Below are positions 18,536 to 37,894 of a stretch of 64,000 nucleotides of DNA, piece after piece. The notes beneath the pieces were generated by a model that was not told the DNA's origin, did not search any database, and saw only the letters and a list, made by a program, of their open reading frames with translations. Location: contig JABLUY010000035.1 of NCBI GenBank assembly GCA_013306675.1, forward strand, positions 1 to 64,000, read 5' to 3'. Made by a program: the position numbers and the translations under genes. Within the stretch, counting starts at the first letter, position 1, and each line of letters begins with the position of its first letter. This stretch comes from Thraustochytrium sp. TN22 (Eukaryota; Sar; Bigyra; Thraustochytrida; Thraustochytriidae).

Positions 18536-18686
18536 TTAGGCCTGAGTCTGCAGGATCTTCTGCACAAAGTCAGCCTTCTCGAGGCAACCGGCATAGTCGA
18601 CGTTGCGGGCCTGAAGGACGGCCTTGAGCTGGCCGGGCTTCATCGCCTCGAGCTGCTCACGAGTGTACACCTGAACGGGCTGCTGC

Positions 18687-18717
<31 letters not shown>

Positions 18718-20785: not shown

Positions 20786-20989
20786 CGCGCCGACCCGCGC
20801 GTCTCCGCCACTGACGCGCTCTCGCCGAGCGCGCCAAGCGCGCCCCGCCGCCCCGCCGCCCCGCCGCCGCCGCCGACCGCCCGCGCGCGCCCCGCCGCGC
20901 GGCGCCTCCGCCGCCCGCCTGCCCTCCGGCGGCCGCCGCCCGCGCCGCCGCGCCGCCCGCCCGCGCGCCGAGCCGCCGCGCAGCAAGTT

Positions 20990-21650
20990 CTTCAAGTTCT
21001 GCCCGCCCGCCGCCGCCGCCACGCGGCCGCGGTCCCCCCTTGGGGCGCTTCTTGGGGCGCTTCTTTTTCCGGGACCTCATTGTCAAGCGCGGGCTCGCCG
21101 CCGCCTGCGCAGCGCACAAGCTCCAGAACCAGCTCGACGACGAGCTCCAGGAGGCCTCGGCTGCAGCCCGGAGGCGAGCCCGAGTCGGCCTGCACACAGC
21201 CTGCAAGAGGGCCTAAGTCTTCGAGGCTGGCTGACTCGTGTGAGCAGCCGGCCGGCAAGGGGAACGTGAGCCACCAAGTGAAGGCACAGGTGCCAATCGT
21301 GCAGCGGAAGAGGCCTACGAATCGTTGGGATTGCTTTCTGGGTGCGGCTGGGAGCATTGGGGAGCAAGGAATGCGTGCAGGGAGGCAGAGGCTGACGGAC
21401 GAGATGCAAGCAGCAGGCGAGCTGCCTGAGACTGCTGGCCCAGGCAGCATGGTCTGCGCCTGGAGAACGTTGGGACTTCGTGCTGTACGGTAGGTTTTCT
21501 TCTTGTGGTGACCAGAAAAGAGAATGAGGAGAACGGAGCGGAGACGATACTGCGGAAACTGCGCTGGCGAGTCAGTATTCAGCTGGACCACTTGACTCGA
21601 AGGATCTTTGAGAGCGATCCTGCTGGCGCTGCTGGCGATGGTGCAGATGA
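20990..21650. repeat. DnaJ 5' flank, homologous to the spacers of the ROCO array
   Basis: This 0.66-kb flank is similar over most of its length to about 25340-26115 and to the matching part of the next spacer (about 30865-31625). Shared landmarks include CTTCTTGGGGCG, CTGCAGCCCGGA and CGAATCGTTGGGAT. It is the left-hand copy of a segmental repeat unit. No gene is supported inside. Confidence 0.8.
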
Positions 21651-24377
21651 TCACTCCATCCGGGCAGGAGGAGCTGTCGCAGGTGCCTCGCAGAGGCTTG
21701 GGCCACGGCCAACGTGGTCGTCGACGACGATCTGGATGAGGACGAGGATGAAGACGAGGACGAGATTGAAGACGAGCACGAAGCAGACGCGGCGACGGCC
21801 GTTGGCTACCATTGTCGCCGTCGAGGATGATGATGGGGCAGCCTCGCCCAGCATCTGCTTGATCCTGTGCCCCAGCCTGTCGATGCGATCGCTGAGATTG
21901 TCGTCTGGGCCGTGCAGCCGTGTGAAGAGCTGGTCGCCGTCAACAAGGAAGCCAAACTCGCCCACCCACTTTTCGGTGTCGCTCACCTCCTCCTCCATGG
22001 TTGCATAGCAGATGCGGCCACGGTGACGGCGCGAGAGGTATCGAAATTCGAAACGGCAGTTCTCCTTGACACCGTCATTCGAGTTCACCTTGTCCATGTA
22101 AGCCTTGGAGACGAACACAACGGACGCCTTGGACCGGTCGATGCCCTGAGCCATGCTCCGTGTCACGTTGCCACGGACTCGTTCTTCGTCGAGCCAAGAC
22201 GAGATACCGTGTCGCTCCTGCAGCTCGTGCTTGACGCGGCGCACGACGTTGTGAATTGCGTTGCCGGCTCCCCAGTTGTGGGATAGAAAGACGTCAAAGT
22301 GAGCGGCCTGCTTGATGACTGCGCGCTTGGCATCTACAAAGGCGGCAAAGGAGGCCAGAGGAAGTGCGCTCCCGTGAACGCTCGCGACTGACGAGCGGTC
22401 TGCCTGGATCGCCTCGAGGATGTCGACCGCGGAGGCGCACGACTCGTCCGCGTCCGTGCAATCCGAGCTAAGGAAGAGCACCGGCTGGAGTTTGTTCCTC
22501 ATGAAGGCGTCGCTGATATCCTGCAAGGCGTTCGCGAGCAGATGGAAGCGGTCCGAAATGTCTCTGACCGCGCCCTGGGACGGCTTCTGAGCGCGCAGGT
22601 AGACCCGCGCGTGGTCGTCGTGGAGACTGTATGTCACGAGGAAGTTAACACCGTCGAAATTGACATAGCAGAGATCCTGGAAGACCTCGCATAGTATCAC
22701 CTTGTAGTCGCTCAGCACACAGGCCAGAAGACGCTGAAAGACACCGGTCCCGGCGAAAGCCAGCCTGACAAACGCGAGGCTGCCGTCTTGGAAGTCGTTG
22801 ACCAGCTTCAAGCGGCGCTGGTCTGATACCGCCGGAAGCAGACTTGGAACAAGGAGCAAGCCGAGCATGCCCGGCGTCTCACTTGCAAGTCGCGCCTCGA
22901 GCATGAAGTCCCGCATGTACGCGACCTCCATGCTGTTGTCCCCCCAGAGAAACTTTAGAAGGGGCAGCGACGCCTTGCCCGCTTTTCGGAGCTCCCCGAA
23001 GTCTTTCCTGAGCCCGCGACTGCTGAGAGCCGGGTCGTGCAGGATGCTCAATCTGTGCTGCTCGCCCGCAATCACGCGCGACAACTTGTCCAGAAGCCAC
23101 TGAGGCTGAAGGACAACGGTGCCCGCAAGGGCTTCGGTTCCCTGGGAGTAGACGACCATGCCCATCTCGTGGAAGAAGAGGAGGAAGTCATTCACTTCAT
23201 CCTCGTTGATGCCGTGCTCAGCAGCAAGCTCCCGTACCTCACTGAGACGGACAAATGGTGTCTCGTCGGCGCGTCTCAGCAGCTCATCGAGCACCTTGAG
23301 CCACCGGAGAGACACATGTCGGGATACAGATTCGAGCTTTGAAGCTGAGGTCTCCAGCGCTTTGCGAAGCGGCGCAGCACGTTCGGGTTGCTCAGAACTG
23401 TTGTCGACAGGAAAGAAGCTCAGCGCGGCTTCCGTGTTGGTCGTGATCGGTACGTCGTGGATGCTGAGCTCGTCCTCGAGAATTCTGTCCACGTGGTGCA
23501 GGTCGGAGTCTGGTTCCAAATGAGTGCCAACCAGCAGCAGCGAGGCCTTGGGCTGGTCGCCGCGAAAGCTCTCTTCCCCAACATGCAGGAGAATTGAGTC
23601 TCGCCAGAACCGCATGTAGCGCAGCGCTTCCGGACGCGATGCCTCGTCGAGAAGCTCTTTGATGTTGAAGACCAGCACGTAGATGCCCGTGCAAGTCAGG
23701 AAGATGTGGTGCAGGGTGTAGAAGACTTCCTGTCCGGCATAGTCCCAGATGGTAAAAGTGATGGAGGATCCTTGCGCTGTCATTGCATCGAAATCGGAGC
23801 TCTCGGTGATGCGACGTGCGATCTCAGCGTCGCGGGCGTTTGGCGCAATCCAACCAGGAGGCTCGACGGCCGAGTCAATGTTACGGGCCGCGGCTTGGAT
23901 GGCGCTCTGGTCGAGGCCACTGCTGATCGCGGTTTGCGGCTTCCAGTCCTTTGTTTCCGTGCGGGAAAGGGCAACGCCGATAGTTGAAGCCTGGCCTCGC
24001 TTTGGTGGGCGGCCAAGGAGTGAGTCCACCGTGGAGGTCTTGCCTGCCGCACCCTGGCCAACAAACATGAGCTTGCATCGCGCGTATTCTGCCCCGTCGC
24101 CAACGCGAAGGGCAGCCAGTAAACACCGATTCGGTAGAGAGACTTCGGTTTTCCACAGGTGGTAAGCAGCATTTACCTTAAGAGAGTCTTCGGTACCAGG
24201 GGCTGTCATTGACAAGAATCCCATTAATGCAAAAAAGTTAGTCTCGACGGGCAAGGATCCGTGTCTGCCAGTGAAAGTAATCTTCGAGATGCCTTCAAAT
24301 GGTGAGAGTGGCCCGGCCAAATTTGTGAATGGTGAGCCTGAGATGATTTCCTCCTCCGCTTCGATTGCCTCCTCCAT
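21651..24377 (-). CDS. ROC-COR-TIR protein, copy 1 (no N-terminal TIR; hydrophobic C-terminal tail)
   Basis: 908 aa from the ATG at 24377 (ACAATGG context); an in-frame Arg-rich extension to 24539 is less likely. A unique N-terminus of about 85 residues replaces the TIR domain of its paralogues. The ROC GTPase has the P-loop GQGAAGKT at 107-114, IWDYAGQEVFY (switch II, DxxGQ) and LLVGTHLE at the base-recognition site. A COR region follows. The C-terminal TIR domain begins VFLSHNWGAG and has SSWLDEE and a conserved Glu in NCRFEFRYL. Where the paralogues run into poly-Ser, a frame difference gives a 20-residue hydrophobic stretch (FVLVFNLVLVFILVL), a possible tail anchor. Likely a signalling GTPase of innate-immunity or cell-death type; substrates unknown. 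Confidence 0.85.
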   Translation of the reverse strand: MEEAIEAEEEIISGSPFTNLAGPLSPFEGISKITFTGRHGSLPVETNFFALMGFLSMTAPGTEDSLKVNAAYHLWKTEVSLPNRCLLAALRVGDGAEYARCKLMFVGQGAAGKTSTVDSLLGRPPKRGQASTIGVALSRTETKDWKPQTAISSGLDQSAIQAAARNIDSAVEPPGWIAPNARDAEIARRITESSDFDAMTAQGSSITFTIWDYAGQEVFYTLHHIFLTCTGIYVLVFNIKELLDEASRPEALRYMRFWRDSILLHVGEESFRGDQPKASLLLVGTHLEPDSDLHHVDRILEDELSIHDVPITTNTEAALSFFPVDNSSEQPERAAPLRKALETSASKLESVSRHVSLRWLKVLDELLRRADETPFVRLSEVRELAAEHGINEDEVNDFLLFFHEMGMVVYSQGTEALAGTVVLQPQWLLDKLSRVIAGEQHRLSILHDPALSSRGLRKDFGELRKAGKASLPLLKFLWGDNSMEVAYMRDFMLEARLASETPGMLGLLLVPSLLPAVSDQRRLKLVNDFQDGSLAFVRLAFAGTGVFQRLLACVLSDYKVILCEVFQDLCYVNFDGVNFLVTYSLHDDHARVYLRAQKPSQGAVRDISDRFHLLANALQDISDAFMRNKLQPVLFLSSDCTDADESCASAVDILEAIQADRSSVASVHGSALPLASFAAFVDAKRAVIKQAAHFDVFLSHNWGAGNAIHNVVRRVKHELQERHGISSWLDEERVRGNVTRSMAQGIDRSKASVVFVSKAYMDKVNSNDGVKENCRFEFRYLSRRHRGRICYATMEEEVSDTEKWVGEFGFLVDGDQLFTRLHGPDDNLSDRIDRLGHRIKQMLGEAAPSSSSTATMVANGRRRVCFVLVFNLVLVFILVLIQIVVDDHVGRGPSLCEAPATAPPARME

Positions 24378-24914
24378 TGTAGCTACTTCTAGAAAGGAAC
24401 GAGTCTGCGAGCGCGTAGGTTCGCCGCCCTCACCTGCTGCGAGGACGGCCTGGTCGGTGCCGCCGCCCGCCGCCGAGAGCCCTGCGCGGGTCGAGGTGCG
24501 CCGGCGCGGCCGCGCCCCGCGCCGCGCGCGCCGCGCCATCGTTGAGGTTCTGCTCCCGCTCCTCGCCCCCCGTCAGCAGGCTCTTCTTCGCCATGACTAT
24601 CTTCCTTGCCCACGGCGCCTCCACCGCCGCGCAGAGCAAGTGAGCGCGGGGCGCAGCGGGACAGGCGTACGCACGCGTGCTTGGGGACGCGCCGCGCCGC
24701 CAGCGCCGCGCGGTGCGAGGGTTGGGCGGCGGCCTGCTCTCCGGGGTCGCGGACGGCGCCCGAGCTGCGCATGGAGCAGGTGCTCCTGGAGCTGCTCTTG
24801 GAGGCGCTCTCGAACGAGGAGCGGCGTTAGGAGCCGCAGCAGAGCGCGGCAGAGCGCGGAGGCCGGCACGGAGGAGCACCGGTCGTCGCACTTGTCGTCG
24901 TCGTCGTGCCGAGG
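24378..24914. promoter_or_regulatory. Divergent promoter region, unit A
   Basis: Lies between ROCO copy 1 (minus) and the truncated TPR gene (plus). From about 24640 rightward it matches the corresponding regions of units B and C almost base for base; the part next to ROCO copy 1 is unique, consistent with replacement of the N-terminal TIR coding sequence. Confidence 0.5.
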
Positions 24915-25305
24915 ATGTCCAGCGCGGAGGAGCTGCGCGAGGAGGGCAACCGGCTGTTCGCGGCGGGCGAGGTGTTAGAGGCGGTGGCGTGGTACCGCGC
25001 GAGCCTGGAGGTGGACAGGGTTGTCTGCCAAGACGCTGGGCAACCTGAGCCTGGCGCTGCTCAAGACGGGCGACGCGGAGGAAGCCTTGGAGGCGTGCAT
25101 CGCGGCGGAGCGCAACAACGTCAAGGCGTACGACCGCAAGGCGAGCGAGGAGCAGGCGCTAGGGCGGCTGTGGAAGGCGCGTCAGACGCTGGCGGAGGCC
25201 TGGCGCGCGTTCTCGAATGACGGCAACATCAAGCCGTATCTAGCGAAGCGGTGCAAGGACCTGTTTGCGGGGTGCGTCACGTCGGACACGGAGCTGCGGC
25301 GGCGG
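24915..25305 (+). pseudogene. Truncated TPR gene fragment, unit A
   Basis: From the ATG at 24915 it matches the 5' part of the intact TPR gene at 35922. Relative to it, a one-base insertion near 25018 (GACAGGGTTG instead of GACGGGTCG) shifts the frame within the second repeat. Homology to the TPR gene ends at about 25300, and the DNA continues into sequence resembling the DnaJ 5' flank. The downstream two-thirds of the gene are absent. Unlikely to make a working protein. Confidence 0.8.
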
Positions 25306-26771
25306 AGGTGCCGCGCGGCCTGGGCGCACTTCGGCGCCCGCGTCGCGCATCAGTTTCTTCTCTTCGGCCCGCCCGCCGATGCCGCTGCGCGACCGCTCCG
25401 CGCTTCTTGGGGCGATTCATCTTTCCAGCCAAAGTTCGGGCTCAGCCGCCTGCACAAGAATCAACTTGACGAACCTTGAGGAGGCTTGAGCTGCAGCCCG
25501 GATGCAAGCACGAGCCAGCGTGCAGCCTGCAAGCTGACCCGACTCGTCGGAGCTGACTCGTCTGAGCAGTCGGCGCGCAGCGGGGACTTGAGCCATGAAG
25601 CGATGGCACCGGTACTACTCCTGCAGCGAAAGACGCCTCCGAATCGTTGGGATCGTTTTGGGGGTCCGGCTGGGAGCCTTGGTGCGCAAGCAATGCGTGT
25701 AGGGAGGCAGGGGGCTGATGGACGAGATTCAAGCAGCAGGCGAGCTGCCAGATGCAGCTGGGCCTGAGCCCGCAGGCAACATGGTCGGCGGCTGCAGAAA
25801 CTTGAGACTTGGTGCTGTCCGGTATGTCTTTTCTTGTAGTGCTCGCGGACAAGATGCCCACGTAGGATCACAGGTACACTGCAGGGGGAAGAGAAGTTGG
25901 GATGAAGAGAACGGAGCGAAGACGATACTGCGGAATGTGCGCAAGCTGCCAGTGATTGTCTTTCAGAAAGACCACGCGACTTTTAAAGGATCCTGAATGC
26001 GAAGCGCAAATACGAAGACCTGCTCTGCGCTGCTGGCGATGATGCATACGATGACTCCATCCGGGTCGCAGGAGCCGCCGTAGGTACCTCACAGAGTCTG
26101 CGTCTGAGGCCACGGCCAAGGCACCGCCCAACAATGAGATAGTGCGGCCGGTCCCTGCTGCGGTCTCGCCCATTTCAGAGCGAACATTCTGAGCTTGGAT
26201 GTCAATGCGCTGGTTCGAACTCATTGTCCGAACGGCATAGGTACAGGTGAGCAGGTACGTTTCCGGCGATGGAACGCCTCCGCGCTATTCGCCGCCACCT
26301 TGAGTGCGTAGCAGATGCGGTCACGGCATTCGCGTGGGATGCAACGAAGCAAAGGTTCTTGACGTAAAAGTCTTTGTTTTGAGTCTGCCTCACGCCTTTT
26401 GGGTTTGTCACCTTGGCGGTTCTCGCTGTGTGTCAAGGACCTTTCGCTTCCGTTGAACAAGAACTATGTGTCCAATCAACTTCTGGCCGCGCTCGAGCTG
26501 AGCTCAGTCGCATGGAATAACACCGCGGTGCGGCTTGCAAGTCGAGAGCAGGAGAACCTGACAAGCAAGCGACTTTCAGCGAGAAAACTGAAGCTCAACA
26601 AGCAGTTGCGTTGTTCGCACAACTGCCCGCAGAGCTGCAAACGAAACGGCGCAGGAACGACTGGATCAAGAGCAAGTTGAGCAGAAATGTGAGCAGAAAT
26701 GTCTGATGCGAGAGCTAAGGGTTAGTGCGTGCTCGCTTGCTGGGCCGTGAAGCCGGCGCGGTCGTCGACGA
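25306..26771. repeat. Spacer of segmental unit B
   Basis: The first 0.8 kb resembles the DnaJ 5' flank at 20990-21650. The rest, about 26120-26755, is absent from unit A but shared with unit C. It is less GC-rich than the genes and contains a decayed TIR remnant. A short reading near 26500-26700 ending in LPAELQTKRRRNDWIKSK is shared with unit C but frameshifted between copies, so I do not call it a gene. Confidence 0.75.
26205..26370 (-). pseudogene. Decayed TIR-coding remnant in spacer B
   Basis: Aligned by eye with the 3' end of the ROCO-TIR genes (about 26905-27075), this strip keeps landmarks in the same order and nearly the same spacing: ATGCGCT, GTGAGCAGGT for GTGAAGAGCT, then TAGCAGATGCGG.CACGG. 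On the minus strand it reads RDRICYA where live copies read RGRICYA. Frames are interrupted. It looks like the relic of an older TIR gene of the same family. Confidence 0.55.
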
Positions 26772-29700
26772 CTATGTGGATGAAGACGAGGATGAAGATG
26801 AGGACGAAGCAGACGCGGCAACGGCCATGGTCGCTCCCACAGCCGCCGTCGAAGATGATGACGGGCCAGCCTTGCCAAGCATCTGGTGAATCTTGTGCGC
26901 CAGACTGCCGATGCGCTCGCTTAGCTTGTCGTCTGGGCCGTGCAGCGAGGTGAAGAGCTGGTCGCCGTCAACGAGGAAACCAAACTCGCCCACCCACTTT
27001 TCGGTGTCGCTCACCTCCTCCTCCATGGTTGCATAGCAGATGCGGCCACGGTGGCGGCGCGAGAGGTATCGAAATTCGAGGCGGCAGTTCTCCTTGACAC
27101 CGTCATTCGAGTTCACCTTGTCCATGTAAGCCTTGGAGACGAACACAACGGACGCCTTGGACTGGTCGATGCCCTGAGCCATGCTCCGCGTCGCGTTGCC
27201 ACGAATTCGTTCTTCGTCGAGCCAGGACGAGATACCGTGCCGCTCCTGGAGCTCGTGCTTGACGCGGCGCACGACGTTGTGAATTGCGTTGCCTGCGCCC
27301 CAGTTGTGGGATAGAAAGACGTCAAAGTGAGCGGCCTGCTTGATGACTGCGCGCTTGGCATCTACAAAGGCAGCAAAGGAGGCCAGAGGAAGTGCGCTCC
27401 CGTGAATGCTCGCGACTGACGAGCGGTCTGCCTTGATCGCCTTGACGACGTCGACCGCGGACGCGCATGCCTCATCTGCGTCCGTGCCGTCGGAGCTAAG
27501 GAAGAGCACCGGCTTGAGCTTGTTCCTCATGAAGGCGTCGCTGATGTCCTGCAAGGCGTTCGCGAGCAGATGGAAGCGGTCCGAAATGTCTCCGACCGCA
27601 CTCTGGCATGGCTTCTGAGCGCGAAGGTAGACTCGCGCGTGGTCGCCATTGAGACTGTATGTCACGAGGAAGTTATCACCGTCGAAATTGACAAAGCAGA
27701 GATCCTGGAAGACTTCGCAGAGCGAGACCTGGTATTCGCTAAGCACGAACGCGAGCAGTCGCTGAAAGACACCGGTCCCGGCGAAAGATAACCTGACGAA
27801 GGCGAGGCTGCCACCCTGGAAGTCCTCTTGGAGCTTCAGACGGCGCTGTCTCGGAACGGACTGGAGGAGACTCGGAATCAGGAGAAGCGATGCCGTGCCG
27901 GGAAGCTCGCTCGCAAGAAAGGCCTCCAGCATGAAGTCGCGCATATACTTGACGACATGGCACGTGTCCTCGACCTCCAAGTCACCTCCAGCCCAGAGAA
28001 ACTCCAGAAGCGGCAGCGACGCCTTGCCATCTCTCCGAAGCTCTCCAAACGCCCTGTTGAGTCCACGCTGCCTGAGAGCAGGGTCGTGTATAATGCTGCG
28101 CATGTGATCCTCGTGCGCGATCACGCGCGACAGCCTTTTCAGCAGCCACTGGGGATCCAGGCACACAGAGTCCGCAAGGGCTTCCGTTCCTTGCATGTAG
28201 ACGACCATGCCCATCTCGTGAAAGAAGAGGAGGAAGTCAATCACTTCATCCTCGTTGACGCCGTGCTCAGCAGCAAGCTTGCGTACCTCACTCACGCGGA
28301 CAAACGGCGTCACGTCGGCGCGTTTCAGCAGCTCATCGAGCGCCTTGAGCCACCGGAGCGAGATGGGCCGGGATACAGATTCGAGCTTCGAAGCTGAGTC
28401 TTCCAGCGCTTTGCGAAGCGGTGCAGCACGTTCTAGGTCCACGTCCAGATTGTTGACAGGGAAGAAGCTCAGCAGATCTTTCCTGTTCGTCGTGATGGGC
28501 AGCTCATAAATGCGCAGCTCCTCGTCTAGAAGGGCGTCCACCTCACGGAGGTCAAGGTCTGGCTCCAAGTGAGTGCCGACCAGAAGTAGCGAGGCCTTGG
28601 GCTGGTCGCCGCAAAAGCTCTCTTCCCCGACGTGCAGGAGAATCGAGTCACGCCAGAACCGCATGTAGCGCAGCGCTTCCGGACGTGATACCTCGTCGAG
28701 GAGCTCCTTCATGTTAAAGACCAGCACGTAGATACCGGTACGGGTCAGGAAGATGTGGTGCAGGGTATAGAAGACTTCCTGCCCGGCATAGTCCCAGATG
28801 GTAAAGGTGATGGAGCTCCCACGCTCTGTGCTCGTTGCAAAGTCAGAGGACTCGGCGATGCGCCGTGCAGTCTCCGCGTCCCGTGCTTCGTGGCGCGCAG
28901 GGGTCGAGTGCGCAAGCAAGGCCGGCATGGTATTTTCGCTTGGTGCGGGCCCAAGATGTGGCTCGCTGGGCACCTGCACGTCATCAGGGCCGTCCTCAGA
29001 CAGTAGGCGTTTATGTGCGGCGTGGACAGCCTTCTGGTCGAGACCACTGCTGATCGCGGTTTGCGGCTTCCAGTCCTCTGTGTCTGTACGTAACAGATCA
29101 ATGCCAGGAGTCGAGGCTTGCTTACGCTTTGGTGGCTGGCGAAGCAATGAGTCCACCGTGGAGGTCTTGCCGGCGGCGCCCTGGCCAATGAGCATGAGCT
29201 TGCACCGAGCGTACTCCGTCTCGTCGCCCGAGCGGAGGGCAGCCCGTAGGGCGCCTTCCCAGTCCACCTCGGAAGCAAGACCGGAGAGGTGGGATCCTTC
29301 CCCTTGATGCGTCTCATCGCCCGCGCGGAGGGCAGCCCGAAGGGTGCCTTCCCAGTCTACTTGGGAAGCAACACCGGAGAGGTGGACTCCTCCCCCCTGA
29401 TCGTTCGCGCGGATTGGAACCGGAGAGGTGCGTTCATAGTCCATTTGGGAGGCAACTCCCGAGAGGTGGGATCCTTCACCATGATGAGGTGGGTCCGCCT
29501 CGATCTGTACCATTTGGCTAATGTGTCGAGCAAGGCGCGCAACCTCGTCTGCTTCGCCGCGTAACATGCGGACAAACAATCGATCTCCGGCGAGAGAGAA
29601 GCCAAATACGCCTTTCCACGCAGATGTATTAGCCATGTCAGCCTCGAGCACGCACAGCAACATGCGCGCCGCCTTATGGCGTTTGCGAATATATCTGAAC

Positions 29701-30032
29701 TCGTCGCGGGTGTTGCTGTCGACATCTTCCGGTGCGTTGACCTTGTCCATGTACTCGCGCGTCACGAAGATGACGCTTGCCCTGGACTTGTCGATGCCCT
29801 CCGCCATGGCAGTCATTAAATCGCCGCTCAGCTGTTCCTCGTCTAGCCAGCAGCGTATGCCGTGCTCGACTCGAAGCATCCTAGCGACCTCCCTCACGAT
29901 GCCGTGCGTCTCATTGTTCGGGCCCCAGGCGTGCGAGAGGAACACATCAAACGGCCTCGAGTCAACGGCGCGCCATCCGCCGCCGCCACCGGGTGCGCCA
30001 TCGGGTGCCCCCCCCGCGCCGACCACCTTCAT
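26772..30032 (-). CDS. TIR-ROC-COR-TIR protein, copy 2
   Basis: 1086 aa from the ATG at 30032. Order: Gly-rich start; TIR-1 (about 28-155; VFLSHAWGP, CWLDEE, conserved Glu111 in NTRDEFRYI); linker repeats of about 30 residues (186-275); ROC GTPase with P-loop GQGAAGKT at 283-290, IWDYAGQEVFY and LLVGTHLE; COR domain; TIR-2 (about 900-1030; VFLSHNWGAG, SSWLDEE); and a short poly-Ser tail. TIR domains act as assembly modules or NAD-cleaving enzymes, and ROC-COR pairs as dimerising GTPase switches. Two TIRs flanking ROC-COR suggest nucleotide-gated oligomerisation. Cytosolic by appearance. Much of ROC-COR is nearly identical to copy 3. Relative to copy 3 it ends early through a TAG in place of TCG. 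Confidence 0.9.
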   Translation of the reverse strand: MKVVGAGGAPDGAPGGGGGWRAVDSRPFDVFLSHAWGPNNETHGIVREVARMLRVEHGIRCWLDEEQLSGDLMTAMAEGIDKSRASVIFVTREYMDKVNAPEDVDSNTRDEFRYIRKRHKAARMLLCVLEADMANTSAWKGVFGFSLAGDRLFVRMLRGEADEVARLARHISQMVQIEADPPHHGEGSHLSGVASQMDYERTSPVPIRANDQGGGVHLSGVASQVDWEGTLRAALRAGDETHQGEGSHLSGLASEVDWEGALRAALRSGDETEYARCKLMLIGQGAAGKTSTVDSLLRQPPKRKQASTPGIDLLRTDTEDWKPQTAISSGLDQKAVHAAHKRLLSEDGPDDVQVPSEPHLGPAPSENTMPALLAHSTPARHEARDAETARRIAESSDFATSTERGSSITFTIWDYAGQEVFYTLHHIFLTRTGIYVLVFNMKELLDEVSRPEALRYMRFWRDSILLHVGEESFCGDQPKASLLLVGTHLEPDLDLREVDALLDEELRIYELPITTNRKDLLSFFPVNNLDVDLERAAPLRKALEDSASKLESVSRPISLRWLKALDELLKRADVTPFVRVSEVRKLAAEHGVNEDEVIDFLLFFHEMGMVVYMQGTEALADSVCLDPQWLLKRLSRVIAHEDHMRSIIHDPALRQRGLNRAFGELRRDGKASLPLLEFLWAGGDLEVEDTCHVVKYMRDFMLEAFLASELPGTASLLLIPSLLQSVPRQRRLKLQEDFQGGSLAFVRLSFAGTGVFQRLLAFVLSEYQVSLCEVFQDLCFVNFDGDNFLVTYSLNGDHARVYLRAQKPCQSAVGDISDRFHLLANALQDISDAFMRNKLKPVLFLSSDGTDADEACASAVDVVKAIKADRSSVASIHGSALPLASFAAFVDAKRAVIKQAAHFDVFLSHNWGAGNAIHNVVRRVKHELQERHGISSWLDEERIRGNATRSMAQGIDQSKASVVFVSKAYMDKVNSNDGVKENCRLEFRYLSRRHRGRICYATMEEEVSDTEKWVGEFGFLVDGDQLFTSLHGPDDKLSERIGSLAHKIHQMLGKAGPSSSSTAAVGATMAVAASASSSSSSSSSST
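29208..29477 (-). repeat. Linker repeats between TIR-1 and ROC, copy 2
   Basis: Three direct repeats of about 90 bp coding for HLSGVASQVDWEG...ALRAG-DET units of 29-31 residues. The last unit runs directly into the ROC P-loop strand, so the repeats appear derived from the segment that normally precedes ROC. Confidence 0.85.
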
Positions 30033-30433
30033 CGCGCAACGCGGCGTTGCGCTTCTGCCTGCTTCCCTCGCTCGCCGTCGCCCGCATGCCAAGGATACAG
30101 CCGCTCTGTCAACCCGTTCTGGCCATCCCAGCCCAAGCCTTTCCGGCGCACGCGCCGCAGCGAGCGGACGCGTGGCCGGGCGGGCGTTCGCACGCGTGCT
30201 TGGGGACGCGCCGCGCTGCCAGCGCCGCGCGGCGCTAGGGGTGGGCGGCGGCCTGCTCTCCGGGGTCGCGGACGGCGCCCGAGCTGCGCGTGGAGCAGGT
30301 GCTCCTGGAGCTGCTCCTGGAGGCGCTCTCGAACGAGGAGCGGCCTTAGGAGCCGCAGCAGAGCGCGGCAGAGCGCGGAGGCCGGCACGGAGGAGCACCG
30401 GTCGTCGCACTTGTCGTCGTCGTCGTGCCGAGG
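30033..30433. promoter_or_regulatory. Divergent promoter region, unit B
   Basis: 400 bp between ROCO copy 2 and the truncated TPR gene. Very similar to the regions at 24640-24914 and 35508-35921. It includes GTCGTCGTCGTC runs just before the TPR start. No defined element was recognised. Confidence 0.5.
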
Positions 30434-30825
30434 ATGTCCAGCGCGGAGGAGCTGCGCGAGGAGGGCAACCGGCTGTTCGCGGCGGGCGAGGTCTTAGAGG
30501 CGGTGGCGCGGTACCGCGCGAGCCTAGAGGTGGGCAGGGTTGTCTGCCAAGACGCTGGGCAACCTGAGCCTGGCGCTGCTCTCGACGGGCGACGCGGAGA
30601 AAGCCTTGGAGGCGCCGATCAAGTGCATCGCGGCGGAGCGCACCGTCAAGGCGTACGACCGCAAGGCGAGCGAGGAGCAGGCGCTAGGGCGGCTGTGGAA
30701 GGCGCGTCAGATGCCGGCGGAGGCCTTGCGCGCGTTTCCGAATGACGGCAACATCAAGCCGTATCTAGCGAAGCGGTGCAAGGACCTGTTTGCGGGGTGC
30801 AGCACGTCGGACACGGAGCAGCGGC
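30434..30825 (+). pseudogene. Truncated TPR gene fragment, unit B
   Basis: Same structure as the fragment at 24915: matches the first third of the TPR gene at 35922, carries the same one-base insertion (near 30536), and ends at the same junction into DnaJ-flank-like DNA. It also differs by small in-frame changes (a short insertion coding PIK and loss of one codon nearby). The shared insertion implies that both fragments descend from one broken ancestor. Confidence 0.8.
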
Positions 30826-32165
30826 GGCGGTGGTGCCGCGCGGCCTGGGCGCACTTCGGCGCCCGCGTCGCGCATCAGTTTCTTCTCTTCGGCCCGCCCG
30901 CCGATGCCGCTGCGCGACCGCTCCGCGCTTCTTGGGGCGATTCATCTTTCCAGCCAAAGTTCGGGCTCAGCCGCCTGCACAAGAATCAACTTGACGACCT
31001 TGAGGAGGCTTGAGCTGCAGCCCGAAGGCAAGCACGAGCCAGCGTGCAGCCTGCAAGCTGGCCCGACTTGTCGGAGCTGACTCGTCTGAGCAGTCGGCGG
31101 GCAGCGGGAACTTGAGCCACGAAGCGACGGCACCGGTGCTAAGCCTGCAGCGAAAGAGGCCTCCGAATCGTTGGAATTGTTTGGGGGGTTCGGCTGGGAG
31201 CATTGGGGAGCAAGCAATGTGTGGAGGGAGGCAGGGGGCTGATGGAAGAGATCAAGCAGCATGAGAGCTGCCAGAGGCAGCTGGGCATGGTCCCGCAGGC
31301 AACATGGTCGGCGGCTGCAGAAACTTGAGACTTGGTGCTGTCTGGTATGTCTTTTCTTGTAGTGCTCGCGGACACGGTGCCCACGGAGGATCGCAGGCAC
31401 AGAGAAAAGAGAAGTTGGGATGAAGAGAACGGAGCAGAGACGATACTGAGGAATGTGCGCAAGCTGATTGTCAATCAGTTGGGCCACGCGATTTGAAGGA
31501 TTCTGAATGCGAAGCGCAAATGCGAATACCTGCTCCCTGCGCTGCTGGCGACTCCATCCGGGTCACAGCAAGCGTCGTAGGTACGTCGCAGAGGCTGCGT
31601 CTGAGGCCACGGCCGATGGACCGCCCGACAGTGAGATGGTACGGCCGGTCCCTGCTGCGCTGGTTCGAAGCCATTGTCCGAACGGCAGAGGTGCAGGTGA
31701 GCAGGTACGTTTCTGGCGATGGAAAGCCTCCGCGTTTTTCGCCACCACCTTGAGTGCGTAGCAGATGCGGTCACGGCATTCGCGTGGGATGTAATGAAGC
31801 AAAGGTCATTGACGTAATAGTCCTTGTATTGAGTCTGCCTCACGCCTTTTGGGTTTGTCACCGTGGCGGTTCTCGCTGTCTGTCAAGGATTTGTCGCTTC
31901 CGTTGAAGAAGAACCGTACGTCCAATCAAGTTCTGGCCGCATGCGAGCTGAGCTCAGTCGCATGGAATAACACCGCGGTGCGGCTTGCAAGTCGAGAGCA
32001 GGAGAACCTGACAAGCAAGCGACTTTCAGCGAGAAAACTGAAGCTCGACAAGGCAACTGTGTTGTTCGCACACCTGCCCGCAGAGCTGCAAACGAAGCGG
32101 CGCAGGAACGCCTGGATCAAGAGCAAGTTGAGCAGAAATGTGAGCAGAAATGTCTGATGCGAGAG
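30826..32165. repeat. Spacer of segmental unit C
   Basis: Homologous along its length to 25306-26771, with small deletions. Contains a decayed TIR remnant and the same short reading (LPAELQTKRRRNAWIKSK) near 32070-32130. No gene supported. Confidence 0.75.
31658..31820 (-). pseudogene. Decayed TIR-coding remnant in spacer C
   Basis: Counterpart of the relic at 26205-26370, with the same order of landmarks and the same RDRICYA reading on the minus strand. Highly similar to that copy, so it was duplicated along with the spacer after decay had begun. Confidence 0.55.
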
Positions 32166-35100
32166 CTAAGGGTTAGTGCGTGCTCGCTTGCTGGGCCGTG
32201 AAGCCGGCGCGGTCGTCGACGACGATGTGGATGAGGACGAGGATGAAGATGAGGACGAAGCAGACGCGGCAACGGCCATGGTCGCTCCCACAACCGCCGT
32301 CGAAGATGATGACGGGCCAGCCTTGCCAAGCATCTGGTGGATCTTGTGCGCCAGCCTGTCGATGCGCTCGCTGAGCTTGTCGTCTGGGCCGTGCAGCCGG
32401 GTGAAGAGCTGGTCGCCGTCAACGAGGAAACCAAACTCGCCCACCCACTTTTCGGTGTCGCTCACCTCCTCCTCCATGGTTGCATAGGAGACGCGGCCAC
32501 GGTGGCGGCGCGAGAGGTATCGAAACTCGAGACGGCAGTTCTCTTTGACACCGTCAATTGAGTTCACCTTGTCCATGTAAGCCATGGAGACGAACACAAC
32601 GGACGCCTTGGACCGGTCGATGCCCTGAGCCATGCTCCGCGTCACGTTGCCACGGACTCGTTCTTCGTCGAGCCAGGACGAGATACCGTGCCGCTCCTGG
32701 AGCTCGTGCTTGACGCGGCACACGACGTTGTGAATTGCGTTGCCGGCGCCCCAGTTGTGGGATAGAAAGACGTCAAAGTGAGCGGCCTGCTTGATGACGG
32801 CGCGCTTGGCATCTACAAAGGCAACAAAGGAGGCCAGAGGAAGTGCGCTCCCGTGAACGCTCGCGACTGACGAGCGGTCTGCCTGGATCGCCTCGACGAT
32901 GTCGACCGCGGACGCGCATGCCTCATCTGCGTCCGTGCCGTCGGAGCTAAGGAAGAGCACCGGCTTGAGCTTGTTCCTCATGAAGGCGTCGCTGATGTCC
33001 TGCAAGGCGTTCGCGAGCAGATGGAAGCGGTCCGAAATGTCTCCGACCGCACTCTGGCATGGCTTCTGAGCGCGAAGGTAGACTCGCGCGTGGTCGCCAT
33101 TGAGACTGTATGTCACGAGGAAGTTATCACCGTCGAAATTGACAAAGCAGAGATCCTGGAAGACTTCGCAGAGCGAGACCTGGTATTCGCTAAGCACGAA
33201 CGCGAGCAGTCGCTGAAAGACACCGGTCCCGGCGAAAGATAACCTGACGAAGGCGAGGCTGCCACCCTGGAAGTCCTCTTGGAGCTTCAGACGGCGCTGT
33301 CTCGGAACGGACTGGAGGAGACTCGGAATCAGGAGAAGCGATGCCGTGCCGGGAAGCTCGCTCGCAAGAAAGGCCTCCAGCATGAAGTCGCGCATATACT
33401 TGACGACATGGCACGTGTCCTCGACCTCCAAGTCACCTCCAGCCCAGAGAAACTCCAGAAGCGGCAGCGACGCCTTGCCATCTCTCCGAAGCTCTCCAAA
33501 CGCCCTGTTGAGTCCACGCTGCCTGAGAGCAGGGTCGTGTATAATGCTGCGCATGTGATCCTCGTGCGCGATCACGCGCGACAGCCTTTTCAGCAGCCAC
33601 TGGGGATCCAGGCACACAGAGTCCGCAAGGGCTTCCGTTCCTTGCATGTAGACGACCATGCCCATCTCGTGGAAGAAGAGGAGGAAGTCATTCACTTCAT
33701 CCTCGTTGACACCGTGCTCAGCAGCAAGCTTGCGTACCTCACTCACGCCGACAAACGGCGTCACGTCGGCGCGTTTCAGCAGCTGATCGAGCGCCTTGAG
33801 CCACCGGAGCGAGATGTGCCGGGATACAGATTCGAGCTTCGAAGCTGAGTCTTCCAGCGCTTTGCGAAGCGGTGCAGCACGTTCTAGGTCCACGTCCAGA
33901 TTGTTGACAGGGAAGAAGCTCAGCTGATCTTTCCTGTTCGTCGTGATGGGCAGCTCGTAAATGCGGAGCTCCTCGTCTAGAAGGGCGTCCACCTCACGGG
34001 GGTCAAGGTCTGGCTCCAAGTGAGTTCCGACCAGAAGTAGCGAGGCCTTGGGCTGGTCGCCGCAAAAGCTCTCTTCCCCGACGTGCAGGAGAATCGAGTC
34101 ACGCCAGAACCGCATGTAGCGCAGCGCTTCCGGACGTGATGCCTCGTCGAGGAGCTCCTTCATGTTGAAGACCAGCACATAGATGCCGGTACGGGTCAGG
34201 AAGATGTGGTGCAGGGTATAGAAGACTTCCTGCCCGGCATAATCCCAGATGGTAAAGGTGATGGAGCTCCCACGCTCTGTGCTCGTTGCGAAGTCAGAGG
34301 ATTCGGCGATGCGCCGTGCAGTCTCCGCGTCCCGTGCTTCGTGAAGCGCAGGGGCTGAGTGCGCAAGCACGGCCGTCATGGCATTTCCGGTTGGTGAGGG
34401 CCCAAGATGTGGCTCGCTGGGCACCTGCACGTCATCAGGGCCGTCCTCAGACGATTGTAGGCGTTTATGTGCGGCGTGGACAGCCTTCTGGTCGAGACCA
34501 CTGCTGATTGCGGTTTGCGGCTTCCAGTCCTCTGTGTCTGTACGAAACAAGCCAATGCCAGTTGTCGAGGCTTGGTCACGCTTTGGTGGCTGGCGAAGCA
34601 ATGAGTCCACCGTGGAGGTCTTGCCCGCGGCGCCCTGGCCAATGAGCATGAGCTTGCACCGAGCGTAATCCGTCTCGTCGCCCGAGCGGAGGGCAGCCCG
34701 TAGGGCGCCTTCCCAGTCCACTTCGGAAGCAACACCGGAGAGGTGGGATCCTCCCCCCTGATGCGTCTCATCGACCGAGCGGATGGCAGCCCGATGGGCC
34801 CGGACGCGTTCCCAGTCCACTTCGGAAGCAACACCGGAGAGGTGGGATCCTCTCCCCTGATGCGTCTCATTGACCGAGCGGATGGCAGCCCGAAGGGCCC
34901 GGACGCCTTCCCAGTCCATTTTGGAAGCAACACCGGAGAGGTGGGATCCTTTCTGACAATGACGTAACGTTGATATCTTGCGAATGCGCGCAGCAAGGCG
35001 CGCAACCTCCTTGTCTGCTCCGCCACGTAACATTTTGGTGCACAAATAATGGCCGCCCCAAGAGAAGCCAAATCGGCCTTTCCACCGTGACGGAGATAAA

Positions 35101-35507
35101 TCAGCAATTCCAATTCCAGCCTCGAGCAGGCACGCGACGATGCCAAAGTACCCATGGTGATTGCGAATATAAGCGAACTCGTCGCGGGTGTAGCTGTCGG
35201 CATCGCCCGGCCTGTTGGCTTTGTCAATGTACTCGCGCGTCACGAAGATGACGCTTACGCTGGAGTTCTCGATGCCCTTCGTCATGACAGTCACGTCATC
35301 GCCTCTCAAAGCGTCGTCTAGCCAGCAGCGTATGCCGTGCACGGTTTCGAGCTTCCTAGCGACCTTTTTCACGATGCGGTTCGTCTCACCGTTCGGGCCC
35401 CAGGTGTACGAGAGGAAGGCATCAAACAGCTTCGAGTCAACGGCGCGCCCTCCGCCGCCGCCGCCGGGTGCGCCATCGGGTGCTCCCCCCGCGCCGACCT
35501 TCTTCAT
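32166..35507 (-). CDS. TIR-ROC-COR-TIR protein, copy 3 (basic C-terminal tail)
   Basis: 1113 aa from the ATG at 35507. Same architecture as copy 2: a more diverged TIR-1 (AFLSYTWGP, CWLDD, Glu in YTRDEFAYI), three linker repeats of up to 33 residues (186-275), ROC P-loop GQGAAGKT at 290-297, IWDYAGQEVFY, LLVGTHLE, COR, and TIR-2 with NCRLEFRYL. It is the longest copy: the poly-Ser tract continues into TTAPASRPSKRARTNP, a basic cluster that could act as a nuclear localisation signal. ROC, COR and most of TIR-2 are nearly identical to copy 2, whereas TIR-1 differs strongly, so the N-terminal domain is the variable part. Divergent from the only whole TPR gene of the array. Confidence 0.9.
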   Translation of the reverse strand: MKKVGAGGAPDGAPGGGGGGRAVDSKLFDAFLSYTWGPNGETNRIVKKVARKLETVHGIRCWLDDALRGDDVTVMTKGIENSSVSVIFVTREYIDKANRPGDADSYTRDEFAYIRNHHGYFGIVACLLEAGIGIADLSPSRWKGRFGFSWGGHYLCTKMLRGGADKEVARLAARIRKISTLRHCQKGSHLSGVASKMDWEGVRALRAAIRSVNETHQGRGSHLSGVASEVDWERVRAHRAAIRSVDETHQGGGSHLSGVASEVDWEGALRAALRSGDETDYARCKLMLIGQGAAGKTSTVDSLLRQPPKRDQASTTGIGLFRTDTEDWKPQTAISSGLDQKAVHAAHKRLQSSEDGPDDVQVPSEPHLGPSPTGNAMTAVLAHSAPALHEARDAETARRIAESSDFATSTERGSSITFTIWDYAGQEVFYTLHHIFLTRTGIYVLVFNMKELLDEASRPEALRYMRFWRDSILLHVGEESFCGDQPKASLLLVGTHLEPDLDPREVDALLDEELRIYELPITTNRKDQLSFFPVNNLDVDLERAAPLRKALEDSASKLESVSRHISLRWLKALDQLLKRADVTPFVGVSEVRKLAAEHGVNEDEVNDFLLFFHEMGMVVYMQGTEALADSVCLDPQWLLKRLSRVIAHEDHMRSIIHDPALRQRGLNRAFGELRRDGKASLPLLEFLWAGGDLEVEDTCHVVKYMRDFMLEAFLASELPGTASLLLIPSLLQSVPRQRRLKLQEDFQGGSLAFVRLSFAGTGVFQRLLAFVLSEYQVSLCEVFQDLCFVNFDGDNFLVTYSLNGDHARVYLRAQKPCQSAVGDISDRFHLLANALQDISDAFMRNKLKPVLFLSSDGTDADEACASAVDIVEAIQADRSSVASVHGSALPLASFVAFVDAKRAVIKQAAHFDVFLSHNWGAGNAIHNVVCRVKHELQERHGISSWLDEERVRGNVTRSMAQGIDRSKASVVFVSMAYMDKVNSIDGVKENCRLEFRYLSRRHRGRVSYATMEEEVSDTEKWVGEFGFLVDGDQLFTRLHGPDDKLSERIDRLAHKIHQMLGKAGPSSSSTAVVGATMAVAASASSSSSSSSSSTSSSTTAPASRPSKRARTNP
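34683..34952 (-). repeat. Linker repeats between TIR-1 and ROC, copy 3
   Basis: Direct repeats of about 99 bp (33 codons, GSHLSGVASEVDWER-type), the last merging into ROC. Within this copy the repeats are closer to each other than to those of copy 2, suggesting independent expansion or homogenisation. Confidence 0.85.
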
Positions 35508-35921
35508 CGCGCAACGCGGCGTTGCGCTTCTGCCCGCTTCCCTCGCTCGCCGCTTTCGACGGCATGCCGTGACCAGGGACCAGAAGGATACAGCCGCTCT
35601 GACCTTCTGGCCATCTCAGCCCAAGCTTTTCCCGCGCACGCGCCGCAGCGAGCAGACGCGGGCCAGGGCGGGCGTTTGCACGCGTGCTCGGTGACGCGCT
35701 GCGTCGCCAGCGCCGTGTGGCGCGAGGCGTGGGCGGCGGCCTGCTCTCCGGGGTTGCGGACGGCGCCCGAGCTGCGCGTGGAGCAGGTGCTCCTGGAGCT
35801 GCTCTTGGAGGCGCTCTCGAACGAGGATCGGCGTTAGGAGCCGCAGCAGAGCGCGGCAGAGCGCGGAGGCCGGCGCAGAGGAGCACCGGTCGTCGCAGTC
35901 GTCGTCGTCGTGGTGCCGAGG
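35508..35921. promoter_or_regulatory. Divergent promoter region, unit C
   Basis: About 410 bp between ROCO copy 3 and the whole TPR gene, homologous to the regions of units A and B. Probably the one arrangement that still drives both an intact TPR gene and an intact ROCO gene. Confidence 0.5.
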
Positions 35922-36746
35922 ATGTCCCGCGCGGAGGAGCTGCGCGAGGAGGGTAACCGGCTGTTCGCGGCGGGCGAGGTGTCGGATGCGGTGGCGCGGT
36001 ACCGCGCGAGCCTGGAGGTGGACGGGTCGTCTGCGAAGACGCTGGGCAACCTGAGCCTGGCGTTGCTCAAGGCGGGCGACGCGGAGGAGGCCTTGGAGGC
36101 GGCGGTCAAGAGCATCGCGGCGGAGCGCAACTACGTCAAGGCGTACGACCGCAAGGCGAGCGCGGAGCAGGCGCTAGGGCGGCTGTGGAAGGCGCGCCAG
36201 ACGCTGGCGGAGGCCTTGCGCGTGTTCTCGAATGATGGCAGCGTCAAGCCGTATCTAGCGAAGCGGTACAAGGAGCTGTGCGCGGAGTGCAGCGCGTCGG
36301 ACGCGGAGGCGCCGGTGGAGTCTGCGGAGCACTTTGCGGAGATTTGCAAGCACATGCCGGAGGCGGGCCCGATGCCGGTGTCCAAGCTGCGTTTGGCGAC
36401 AATGGCAACGTTTTGGAACGAGGCGGCCAAGGGCGACCGGCTGGCGCTTTTCGTGCGATTCTTGCAGGTGCTGACGGGCGCGCAGGATCCGATCGCGGGC
36501 GCGGACCTGCCGGAGGACCGGCTGACGCCGTTGCCGATGGAGAACTACGCGGACATCACGGTGCCTGCAACGTATGTGTCGTTCTTCGCGGGGCTGGACC
36601 GCGCCGGCAAGGTGGACCTCTTCGAGAAGATGTACGCCATTTGCACGGACCTTGAGAAGAGTCTCATTGCGCGCGATCTGACCGAGTACTTTCCGCGCCC
36701 TGCGGGCACGCCCAGCGCTGTCGCCGAGCCTGCGAGCGAGAGCTGA
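35922..36746 (+). CDS. TPR protein (intact copy of the array)
   Basis: 274 aa. Three tetratricopeptide repeats fill about residues 1-115 (AEELREEGNRLFAAGEVSDA, then KTLGNLSLALLKAGDAEEAL, then NYVKAYDRKASAEQALGRLW), an arrangement like Hsp70/Hsp90 co-chaperones. Residues 120-274 form an unrecognised helical domain (KLRLATMATFWNEAAKGDRL...TDLEKSLIARDLTEYFP). The ATG at 35922 follows GTC-rich leader DNA. Its first third is duplicated as broken fragments at 24915 and 30434, but the C-terminal part occurs only here. Its constant divergent pairing with the TIR-ROCO genes hints at shared function, for example chaperoning the large GTPase as SGT1/Hsp90 does for plant NLRs; that is inference. Confidence 0.8.
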   Translation: MSRAEELREEGNRLFAAGEVSDAVARYRASLEVDGSSAKTLGNLSLALLKAGDAEEALEAAVKSIAAERNYVKAYDRKASAEQALGRLWKARQTLAEALRVFSNDGSVKPYLAKRYKELCAECSASDAEAPVESAEHFAEICKHMPEAGPMPVSKLRLATMATFWNEAAKGDRLALFVRFLQVLTGAQDPIAGADLPEDRLTPLPMENYADITVPATYVSFFAGLDRAGKVDLFEKMYAICTDLEKSLIARDLTEYFPRPAGTPSAVAEPASES

Positions 36747-37080
36747 TGAGATGAGTGAATAAAGGCAATGAACATGACAACAACGTAAGCCAGCCAGTCG
36801 GCCAACCAGCGGGCGGCCGCGTGCCTTGAGGCTTGCGCTTCGCAGCTGGCTGGCTGCCCGGACACTGCACGGCACGATGGAGAACCTGCCTGTCTGAGGT
36901 TGCGGTTGCGTCCTGAGCCTCGTGGCGGAGCCTCAACAGTTCTTAGGTGTGGCGGAGCACTGCAAAGCAAAGCCAAAAGCTGCTGCGTCACAGTCCAGGT
37001 TCACGCGCGCGCGCGGCAGGCGAGGCAGGCAGGTCGTGCAGCTGCGCTAGGCAGCGGCGGCCCGCTCGCACAGCTCAGAG
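36747..37080. other. Intergenic, no gene seen
   Basis: About 330 bp between two plus-strand genes. Holds the TPR gene 3' flank (an AATAAAGG stretch near 36758 could be a polyadenylation signal) and the promoter of the HAD gene. Confidence 0.4.
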
Positions 37081-37894
37081 ATGGCGGACCCTGGCAGGAC
37101 GGCGGTGGCCCTGGCAGCCATGGGGGCAGCGCTGGTGGCGGTGCGCATGCGCGCGGCGCGGCGACGCGTGCGGCGCGCCAAGCCGCGCGTGGCGCTGGAC
37201 CTGGACGAGGTGGTACGTTCCTGCGCGGCGCGGCGAGATTGAGCTGGAGTCTGACGCAAGGGAGGTTTGTGCGCGGCGATCGGACGTGCAGCTGGGCGCC
37301 TTTCTGCCGGCGCTGATCCGGTACCACAACGACAAGTACGGGACGGAGCTGAAGCTGGACGACTTCTTCTCGTACCGGTTCTGCGAGGTGTGGGGCGGGA
37401 CGAACGAGGAGACGCTGGACAAGATCTTCGACTTCTTCGAGACGGACTACTTCAAGGAGCTCAAGCCTGTGTCGGGCGCGCCGGAGGTGCTGCGTGAGAT
37501 GTCAGACCGGCTGGACTTTGTGGTGGTGACGAGCCGGCAGCACGAGATCACGGAGGAGACGCGCGCGTGGCTGCGCCGGCACTTTGCGGGCGTGATCAGC
37601 CGCGCCGAGTTCGGCAACCACTGGGCCAAGGACGCGCCGGAGCCGGACGAGGACCATTCGAGCAAGCGCAGCAAGGAGGACATGTGCCGCGAGGTGGGCG
37701 CGCGCCTGCTCATCGACGACAACCTCTCGTACGTGACCGAGGTGAGCCGCACTCTCGGCATCCCGTGCGTGCTCTTCGGCGAGTACGCTTGGAACCGCTG
37801 CTCCGACGCCGACCTGCCGTCGCGCGTCACGCGCCTCCCGGACTGGTCCGCCGTGCGCAACTATCTGCGCGACTTTGCGGAGCGCGAAGGCTGA
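37081..37894 (+). CDS. HAD-superfamily phosphatase, 5'-nucleotidase-like, two exons, membrane-anchored
   Basis: Exon 1 is 37081..37212 and exon 2 is 37292..37894, joined across a 79-nt intron (GTACGT donor, GTGCAG acceptor, phase 0). The product is 244 aa. The splice rebuilds HAD motif I as ALDLDEVLGAFLPAL (Asp40 nucleophile, Asp42 acid/base); the intron cuts directly after DLDEV. Motif II is VVVTSR (Thr124/Ser125), the Lys of motif III lies in the SKRSKEDMC stretch, and motif IV is LLIDDN (Asp186/187). The fold is closest to deoxyribonucleotidase-type HADs. A hydrophobic N-terminal helix followed by Arg-rich residues (about 7-33) looks like a signal anchor. Substrate unknown. Confidence 0.75.

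Follow-up and report, generated by a model that had tools for sequence, protein, structure and literature searches.

The closest described systems to the genes reported here are ROCO proteins, namely LRRK2, the brown-algal LRR-ROCO proteins and two PDB entries (3dpu and 6hlu) that we take to be bacterial Roco, though the table of PDB matches labels them 'Rab family protein'. In excerpts of a survey of these proteins, the brown-algal LRR-ROCO are candidate immune receptors, and the red alga Chondrus crispus has a TPR-ROCO-TIR protein that joins Roc-COR and TIR in one chain (PMC11378527). We analysed a window of 64,000 nucleotides (contig JABLUY010000035.1, positions 1 to 64,000) in which positions 21651 to 36746 hold a tandem array of three ROCO genes with C-terminal TIR domains. 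The array resembles the ROCO proteins named above in its Roc-COR tandem, its membership in a large family and the LRRs that precede Roc in some members of that family, but it differs from them in the C-terminal TIR, in that no LRR or kinase was found in it, in a G4 motif that ends in Glu, and in an insert of about 105 to 132 residues between P-loop and DYAGQE, compared to roughly 56 in the 3dpu alignment. While the TPR of the Chondrus crispus protein is part of the chain according to the same excerpts (PMC11378527), the TPR gene is separate here and TIRs may occupy both ends of the protein.

The three genes lie on the minus strand in open reading frames at 21651-24539 (copy 1), 26772-30410 (copy 2, with an earliest plausible ATG at 30032) and 32166-35507 (copy 3). 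Pfam finds a Roc domain (52.9, 55.2 and 54.9 bits in copies 1, 2 and 3; curated cut-off 27), COR-A directly after it (49.2, 46.1 and 46.9 bits; cut-off 35.3) and TIR_2 (41.9, 84.1 and 69.2 bits; cut-off 28) in all of them, with a single TIR stretch in copy 1 and a pair in each of copies 2 and 3; the P-loop is intact in every copy and DxxG is also present. An earlier note on this DNA had described three minus-strand ROC genes with intact P-loops and C-terminal TIRs, two of them with an N-terminal TIR as well, and the domain search for TIR, Roc and COR confirms this above threshold for all three copies. Copy 1 (21651..24539) is a Roc-COR-TIR gene without an N-terminal TIR, with P-loop codons at about 24033-24062, its TIR at 21804..22313 and an inner ATG at 24377 as a possible start; its N-terminal 96 amino acids (24090-24377) have no second match anywhere in the genome. 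Copies 2 and 3 are TIR-Roc-COR-TIR genes of 1086 amino acids (26772..30032, counted from ATG 30032) and 1113 amino acids (32166..35507), with P-loops at about 29160-29189 and 34614-34643 and C-terminal TIRs at 26832..27341 and 32283..32792. Their N-terminal TIRs (29457..29966 and 34932..35441; 47.6 and 37.2 bits for TIR_2 with the domain scanned alone) are followed by linkers to Roc (29205..29474 and 34659..34949) that consist of three tandem repeats each, of about 28 to 31 amino acids in copy 2 and about 33 in copy 3. In the PDB, the sequence of copy 2 is matched best by 3dpu, 6hlu and LRRK2 entries, and the P-loop is 105, 131 and 132 residues away from WDYAGQ in copies 1, 2 and 3. Pfam detected no repeat families in the three proteins and, at E 0.1, no NTPase of the NB-ARC or NACHT type, bar a weak AAA_16 match in copy 3 (14.4 bits; cut-off 32.6). 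The G+C content at third codon positions (GC3) is 0.713 in each ROCO gene of the array versus 0.771-0.887 in five other genes of the window and 0.743-0.906 in 13 other family members.

We lean towards reading the three ROCO-TIR genes as an NLR-like, GTPase-gated array of TIR effectors that arose by tandem duplication. Triggered by a signal or by the exchange of nucleotide on Roc, the Roc-COR dimer would rearrange and bring the C-terminal TIRs together, and the assembled TIRs would then break down NAD+ or form a TIR product, upon which the cell would defend itself or die. The N-terminal TIR would have joined later; it is more probably a modifier, or a second surface for assembly, than the main effector. 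A protist NLR-like module for defence or death had already been proposed in the earlier note, and we likewise infer an NLR-like working of these proteins: the ROCO-TIR proteins themselves, a glutamate aligned with an NADase site and the abundance of NLR-like TIR proteins in the genome speak for it. The role in defence or death is one that such a genome would fit, and homology and the make-up of the genome make it plausible.

In other organisms, TIR domains are able to break down NAD during immune responses and cell death, and the glutamate that had been singled out as conserved in every TIR of the array is indeed found, within its motif, in all five. The array does not stand out in this: five columns are invariant in an alignment of 30 TIRs (A3, chosen from 46 with the most divergent omitted), among them D42, E89 and F90, and a loose pattern search detects E-F or E-L at the expected place in 47 of the 49 genome TIRs, missing L009 and L034. 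In a hidden Markov model profile alignment, H12, D42 and E89 fall on H8, D33 and E74 of the CRISPR-associated TIR NADase Cat1 (9mud; residue numbers counted along the printed alignment), and the proposal that the glutamate is placed as in NADase TIRs thus holds at the level of sequence. Excerpts of the work on Cat1 report that these three residues line its NADase site, that D33A and E74A are defective in toxicity in cells, and that purified D33A lost activity only partly (PMC12162218). The two systems share the aligned His, Asp and Glu but differ in that Cat1 has a CARF sensor and forms filaments (PMC12162218), whereas the array combines its putative NADase with Roc-COR.

Several observations weigh against an effector array of this kind. 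No LRR pattern occurs on either strand of 21001-38000, so the array is without an obvious sensor. The G4 motif reads THLE in all three copies, compared to a last residue Asp in all 26 other members, and the preference for GTP is therefore unsure; the G4 Asp has a role in guanine specificity, and it is not universally counted as defining ROCO. The array copies further have DYAGQ where the 26 other members all have DYGGQ, and their Roc switch is altered relative to the family. H12 is replaced by Tyr in the N-terminal TIR of copy 3 (2 of 30 TIRs overall, the other being the N-terminal TIR of the family locus L042), and SEFIR entries outscore Cat1 in the PDB profile search, with alignments that end before the Glu. 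Between copies 2 and 3, the ratio of nonsynonymous to synonymous divergence (dN/dS; ranges in brackets are from bootstrap) is 1.41 in COR (0.37-4.22; 2 synonymous and 9 other changes) and 0.41 in the C-terminal TIR (0.16-1.23), both too similar to judge. Lastly, the NPHP3_N model, which finds a domain behind TIR in 21 open reading frames of this genome, also matches 9 of 14 prokaryote control genomes, 5 of them above the cut-off, so its count alone is not NLR-specific and only fusions of TIR to NPHP3_N are taken here as NLR-like.

The SEFIR matches and the lost histidine bear on a different reading, in which the TIRs are scaffolds that pass a signal by surface assembly while the fold or another ligand accounts for the conserved Glu. 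SEFIR domains give the highest-ranking PDB matches of the profile, bacterial SEFIR defence proteins (5y8f; PADLOC bSEFIR) resemble the array by a sequence match to its N-terminal TIRs and by TIR profile (bSEFIR at 9.3e-9 and 1.5e-5 for copies 2 and 3), the Tyr at H12 recurs in the N-terminal TIRs of copy 3 and L042, and two TIRs per chain would be suitable for a scaffold. The bacterial proteins are without Roc-COR, and their alignments miss the Glu. However, the invariance of Glu and Asp in the 30 chosen TIRs exceeds what a pure surface role would need, and residues of the array align with the Cat1 active site; we consider pure scaffolding rather improbable.

The history of the array is that of a single repeated unit. 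Self-comparison finds copies that are 83.5-90.7% identical in DNA over 2.1-6.2 kb (90.7% for 24656-30830 against 30175-36318), so chance is no issue for the array. The unit extends from an intergenic start near a DnaJ-X frame (18536-21022; DnaJ-X by Pfam) over one ROCO gene to approximately the first 134 codons of a divergent TPR gene. At the 5' end of the DnaJ-X frame lies a worn left-hand copy of the intergenic start (20940..21712, no strand assigned), which is 68.6% identical to 25311-26119 and, over 20940-21510, 73.0% identical to 30836-31364. The array thus formed by repeated tandem duplication of a unit of about 4.4 to 5.5 kb that ends inside the adjacent TPR gene. If the duplicated segment stops within the TPR gene on its right-hand side, every inner junction should carry a cut-off piece of that gene, and a single complete copy should remain at the right-hand extreme of the array. 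The sole intact TPR gene (35922..36746 on the plus strand, in an open reading frame of 35910-36746) indeed lies at that end, divergent from ROCO copy 3, with TPR models below or near their Pfam cut-offs (best E 8.9e-6). The plus-strand fragments at copy 1 (24915..25300) and copy 2 (30434..30825) are 5' parts alone that match about the first 134 codons, share the same one-base frameshift and are without the 3' half; no close TPR homologue was found elsewhere, the best being 34% identical. That ROCO and TPR sequences recur in pairs follows from where the duplication breakpoint lies, and the earlier view that each ROCO copy is paired with a TPR gene fails for two of the three copies. A partnership with a TPR co-chaperone, as in the support of plant NLRs that had been invoked, was rejected on the same grounds, since one of three TPR copies is intact and the breakpoint accounts for both fragments.

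Identity along the copies is patchy. The C-terminal TIRs are 89-97% identical in all pairs (150-column steps), while synonymous divergence (dS) between copies 2 and 3 is 0.008 in COR versus 0.24 in the N-terminal TIR and 0.30 in the linker, and that between copies 1 and 2 is 0.66 in Roc, 0.50 in COR and 0.16 in the C-terminal TIR. This patchwork probably reflects homogenisation by gene conversion. The ROCO core is under purifying selection, because comparisons with copy 1 give a dN/dS of 0.26-0.29 for Roc, COR and C-terminal TIR and that of copies 2 and 3 gives 0.33 (0.17-0.68) for Roc. No purifying selection is detectable in the N-terminal TIR of copies 2 and 3 (1.39; 0.94-2.15), and the linker lies at 0.77 (0.42-1.47). 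Measured against 73 positions that are conserved at 80% or more across 17 C-terminal TIRs of the family, the N-terminal TIR keeps 65 in copy 2 versus 51 in copy 3. Positive selection on this domain was considered and set aside, given an interval that spans 1 and the loss of conserved sites in copy 3; the data favour relaxed constraint on the N-terminal TIR of copy 3.

These values raise the possibility, which we hold only tentatively, that the array is partly decaying surplus, made by recent duplication and with N-terminal TIRs under relaxed constraint. The dN/dS and the lost conserved positions of the N-terminal TIRs, the TPR gene broken in two of three copies and the low GC3 of the array all point in this direction, but the three ROCO frames are open over their full length and the dN/dS of Roc in copies 2 and 3 is that of a constrained domain. 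Decay of the copy 3 N-terminal TIR can go along with a working remainder and does not exclude a GTPase-gated effector array.

The N-terminal TIRs do not share one source. A TIR precedes Roc in three of the ROCO frames examined, namely copies 2 and 3 of the array and L042 (loci were taken with about 1.5 kb of flank, from which upstream exons could escape). At L042 (contig C215), a TIR-NPHP3_N gene (L042 4342-5526; G000 C215:35299-36330) begins just after the TIR-Roc-COR-TIR gene. The N-terminal TIR of L042 is weak in Pfam (25.5 bits, below the cut-off of 28; E 2e-5) and a seed of our custom TIR model; it clusters with the TIR of the adjoining TIR-NPHP3_N gene with a support of 99/100 in a first tree of 47 of the 49 TIRs and 100/100 in a second tree of 32 of those 47, from which divergent rows had been removed. 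The N-terminal TIRs of the array are instead placed among the C-terminal TIRs of other ROCO genes, weakly next to L022 in the first tree (88/60) and without that sister in the second, and their own C-terminal TIR is not rejected as a source (clade of N- and C-terminal TIRs of the array, approximately unbiased test, p 0.22). A single origin of the L042 and array N-terminal TIRs was rejected (p 1.6e-5, for a group named after the first tree had been seen), and the TIR-Roc-COR-TIR plan therefore arose at least twice. The earlier description of TIRs bracketing the GTPase holds for copies 2 and 3 but not as a family plan, given three frames with a TIR before Roc among those examined. No title or abstract on TIR-Roc-COR-TIR proteins was found in the open-licence literature searched; excerpts of the ROCO survey name an N-terminal TIR among the ROCO domains of other organisms (PMC11378527).

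The three genes of the array are one local expansion of a larger ROCO family. In the genome (37.9 Mb in 453 contigs), the copy 3 protein has 65 matching pieces that we grouped by hand into 41 family loci, array included. Of these loci, 29 form the set that was scanned with Pfam (A1; L052 was omitted because its frame was missed by the motif search, and 11 are without a locus from the genome match), with Roc and COR-A in 29/29, TIR_2 in 26/29 and LRR_6 in 2/29. LRRs lie upstream of Roc in L049 and L061, and a looser LRR-like pattern occurs on the sense strand of 7 of 27 paralogue loci (that of L046 being downstream of the gene) versus none of 27 on the antisense strand; a stricter one is left at 1/27. 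Midpoint rooting was used to draw a Roc-COR tree of the 29 members, which falls into groups of 12 and 17; the array branches deeply within the larger one. No relatives were confirmed in bacterial or archaeal genomes or viral contigs by the A1, A2 and A3 scans, a weak negative, as each scan relied on a tblastn filter together with no more than two short patterns.

Beyond this family, TIR_2 has 123 matches in the genome (114 above the cut-off) and NPHP3_N has 46, of which 22 (in 21 open reading frames) lie shortly behind a TIR match of the same frame, three of these TIR matches being below the cut-off. Like the array, these TIR-STAND proteins combine a nucleotide switch with a TIR of the same superfamily, but theirs is a STAND ATPase behind an N-terminal TIR compared to the Roc GTPase of the array. 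Ten further TIR frames that were scanned contain NPHP3_N (two), ankyrin repeats (two), a Mind bomb SH3 repeat (two) and LRR_6 (one). L017 and L032 have a C-terminal TIR on ankyrin-repeat proteins; two TIR and two NPHP3_N matches alternate in one frame of 2048 amino acids (G000 C242:29549-32329); and a TIR match recurs every 1043 bases at G000 C160:192-5666, with a TGA inside four of them, which makes this a tandem array that includes broken copies.

Elsewhere, ROCO proteins serve a variety of functions, and those of this genome may act in signalling for feeding, development or self-recognition rather than in defence. LRRK2 and DAPK1 are indeed named among the ROCO proteins in excerpts of the survey (PMC11378527). 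Nonetheless, a large, tandemly duplicated and fast-changing family beside TIR-STAND genes would be the pattern of an immune repertoire, and we regard a purpose other than defence as unlikely. A broader proposal is that Roc-COR GTPases beside STAND ATPases are the switches of one large innate immune arsenal between whose types TIRs move, the N-terminal TIR of L042 having come from the type of the adjoining TIR-STAND gene and the array having gained one of ROCO type independently, with a diversifying N-terminal TIR and a homogenised C-terminal TIR as effector in what is probably a single-celled stramenopile; we put this forward as speculative, though conceivable.

Some observations concern the organism. 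Two FabA domains lie in a single frame of 1719 amino acids (G000 C415:118719-120677), which presumably resembles a polyunsaturated fatty acid synthase subunit, and no chlorophyll-binding match was found in the genome. A protein with three Zf_WRKY19 zinc-finger stretches is encoded at 55791-57623 of the window. Taken together, these markers suggest a non-photosynthetic stramenopile of thraustochytrid type, while comparison by rRNA gave no match. The window has a G+C content of 66%; for thraustochytrid genomes of similar size, excerpts of published reports give different values, 57% for CCAP_4062/3 (PMC5854782) and 47.5% for Botryochytrium S-28 (PMC10101102).

In its excerpts, the ROCO survey lists no more than four ROCO proteins for unicellular SAR species, Schizochytrium aggregatum included, and suggests that ROCO diversity is linked to multicellularity (PMC11378527). 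If the organism studied here is single-celled, as its markers suggest, its 41 ROCO loci would mean that this link is not general. Such a protist would then be a test bed for the evolution, the TIR-domain swapping and the working of GTPase-gated TIR receptors.

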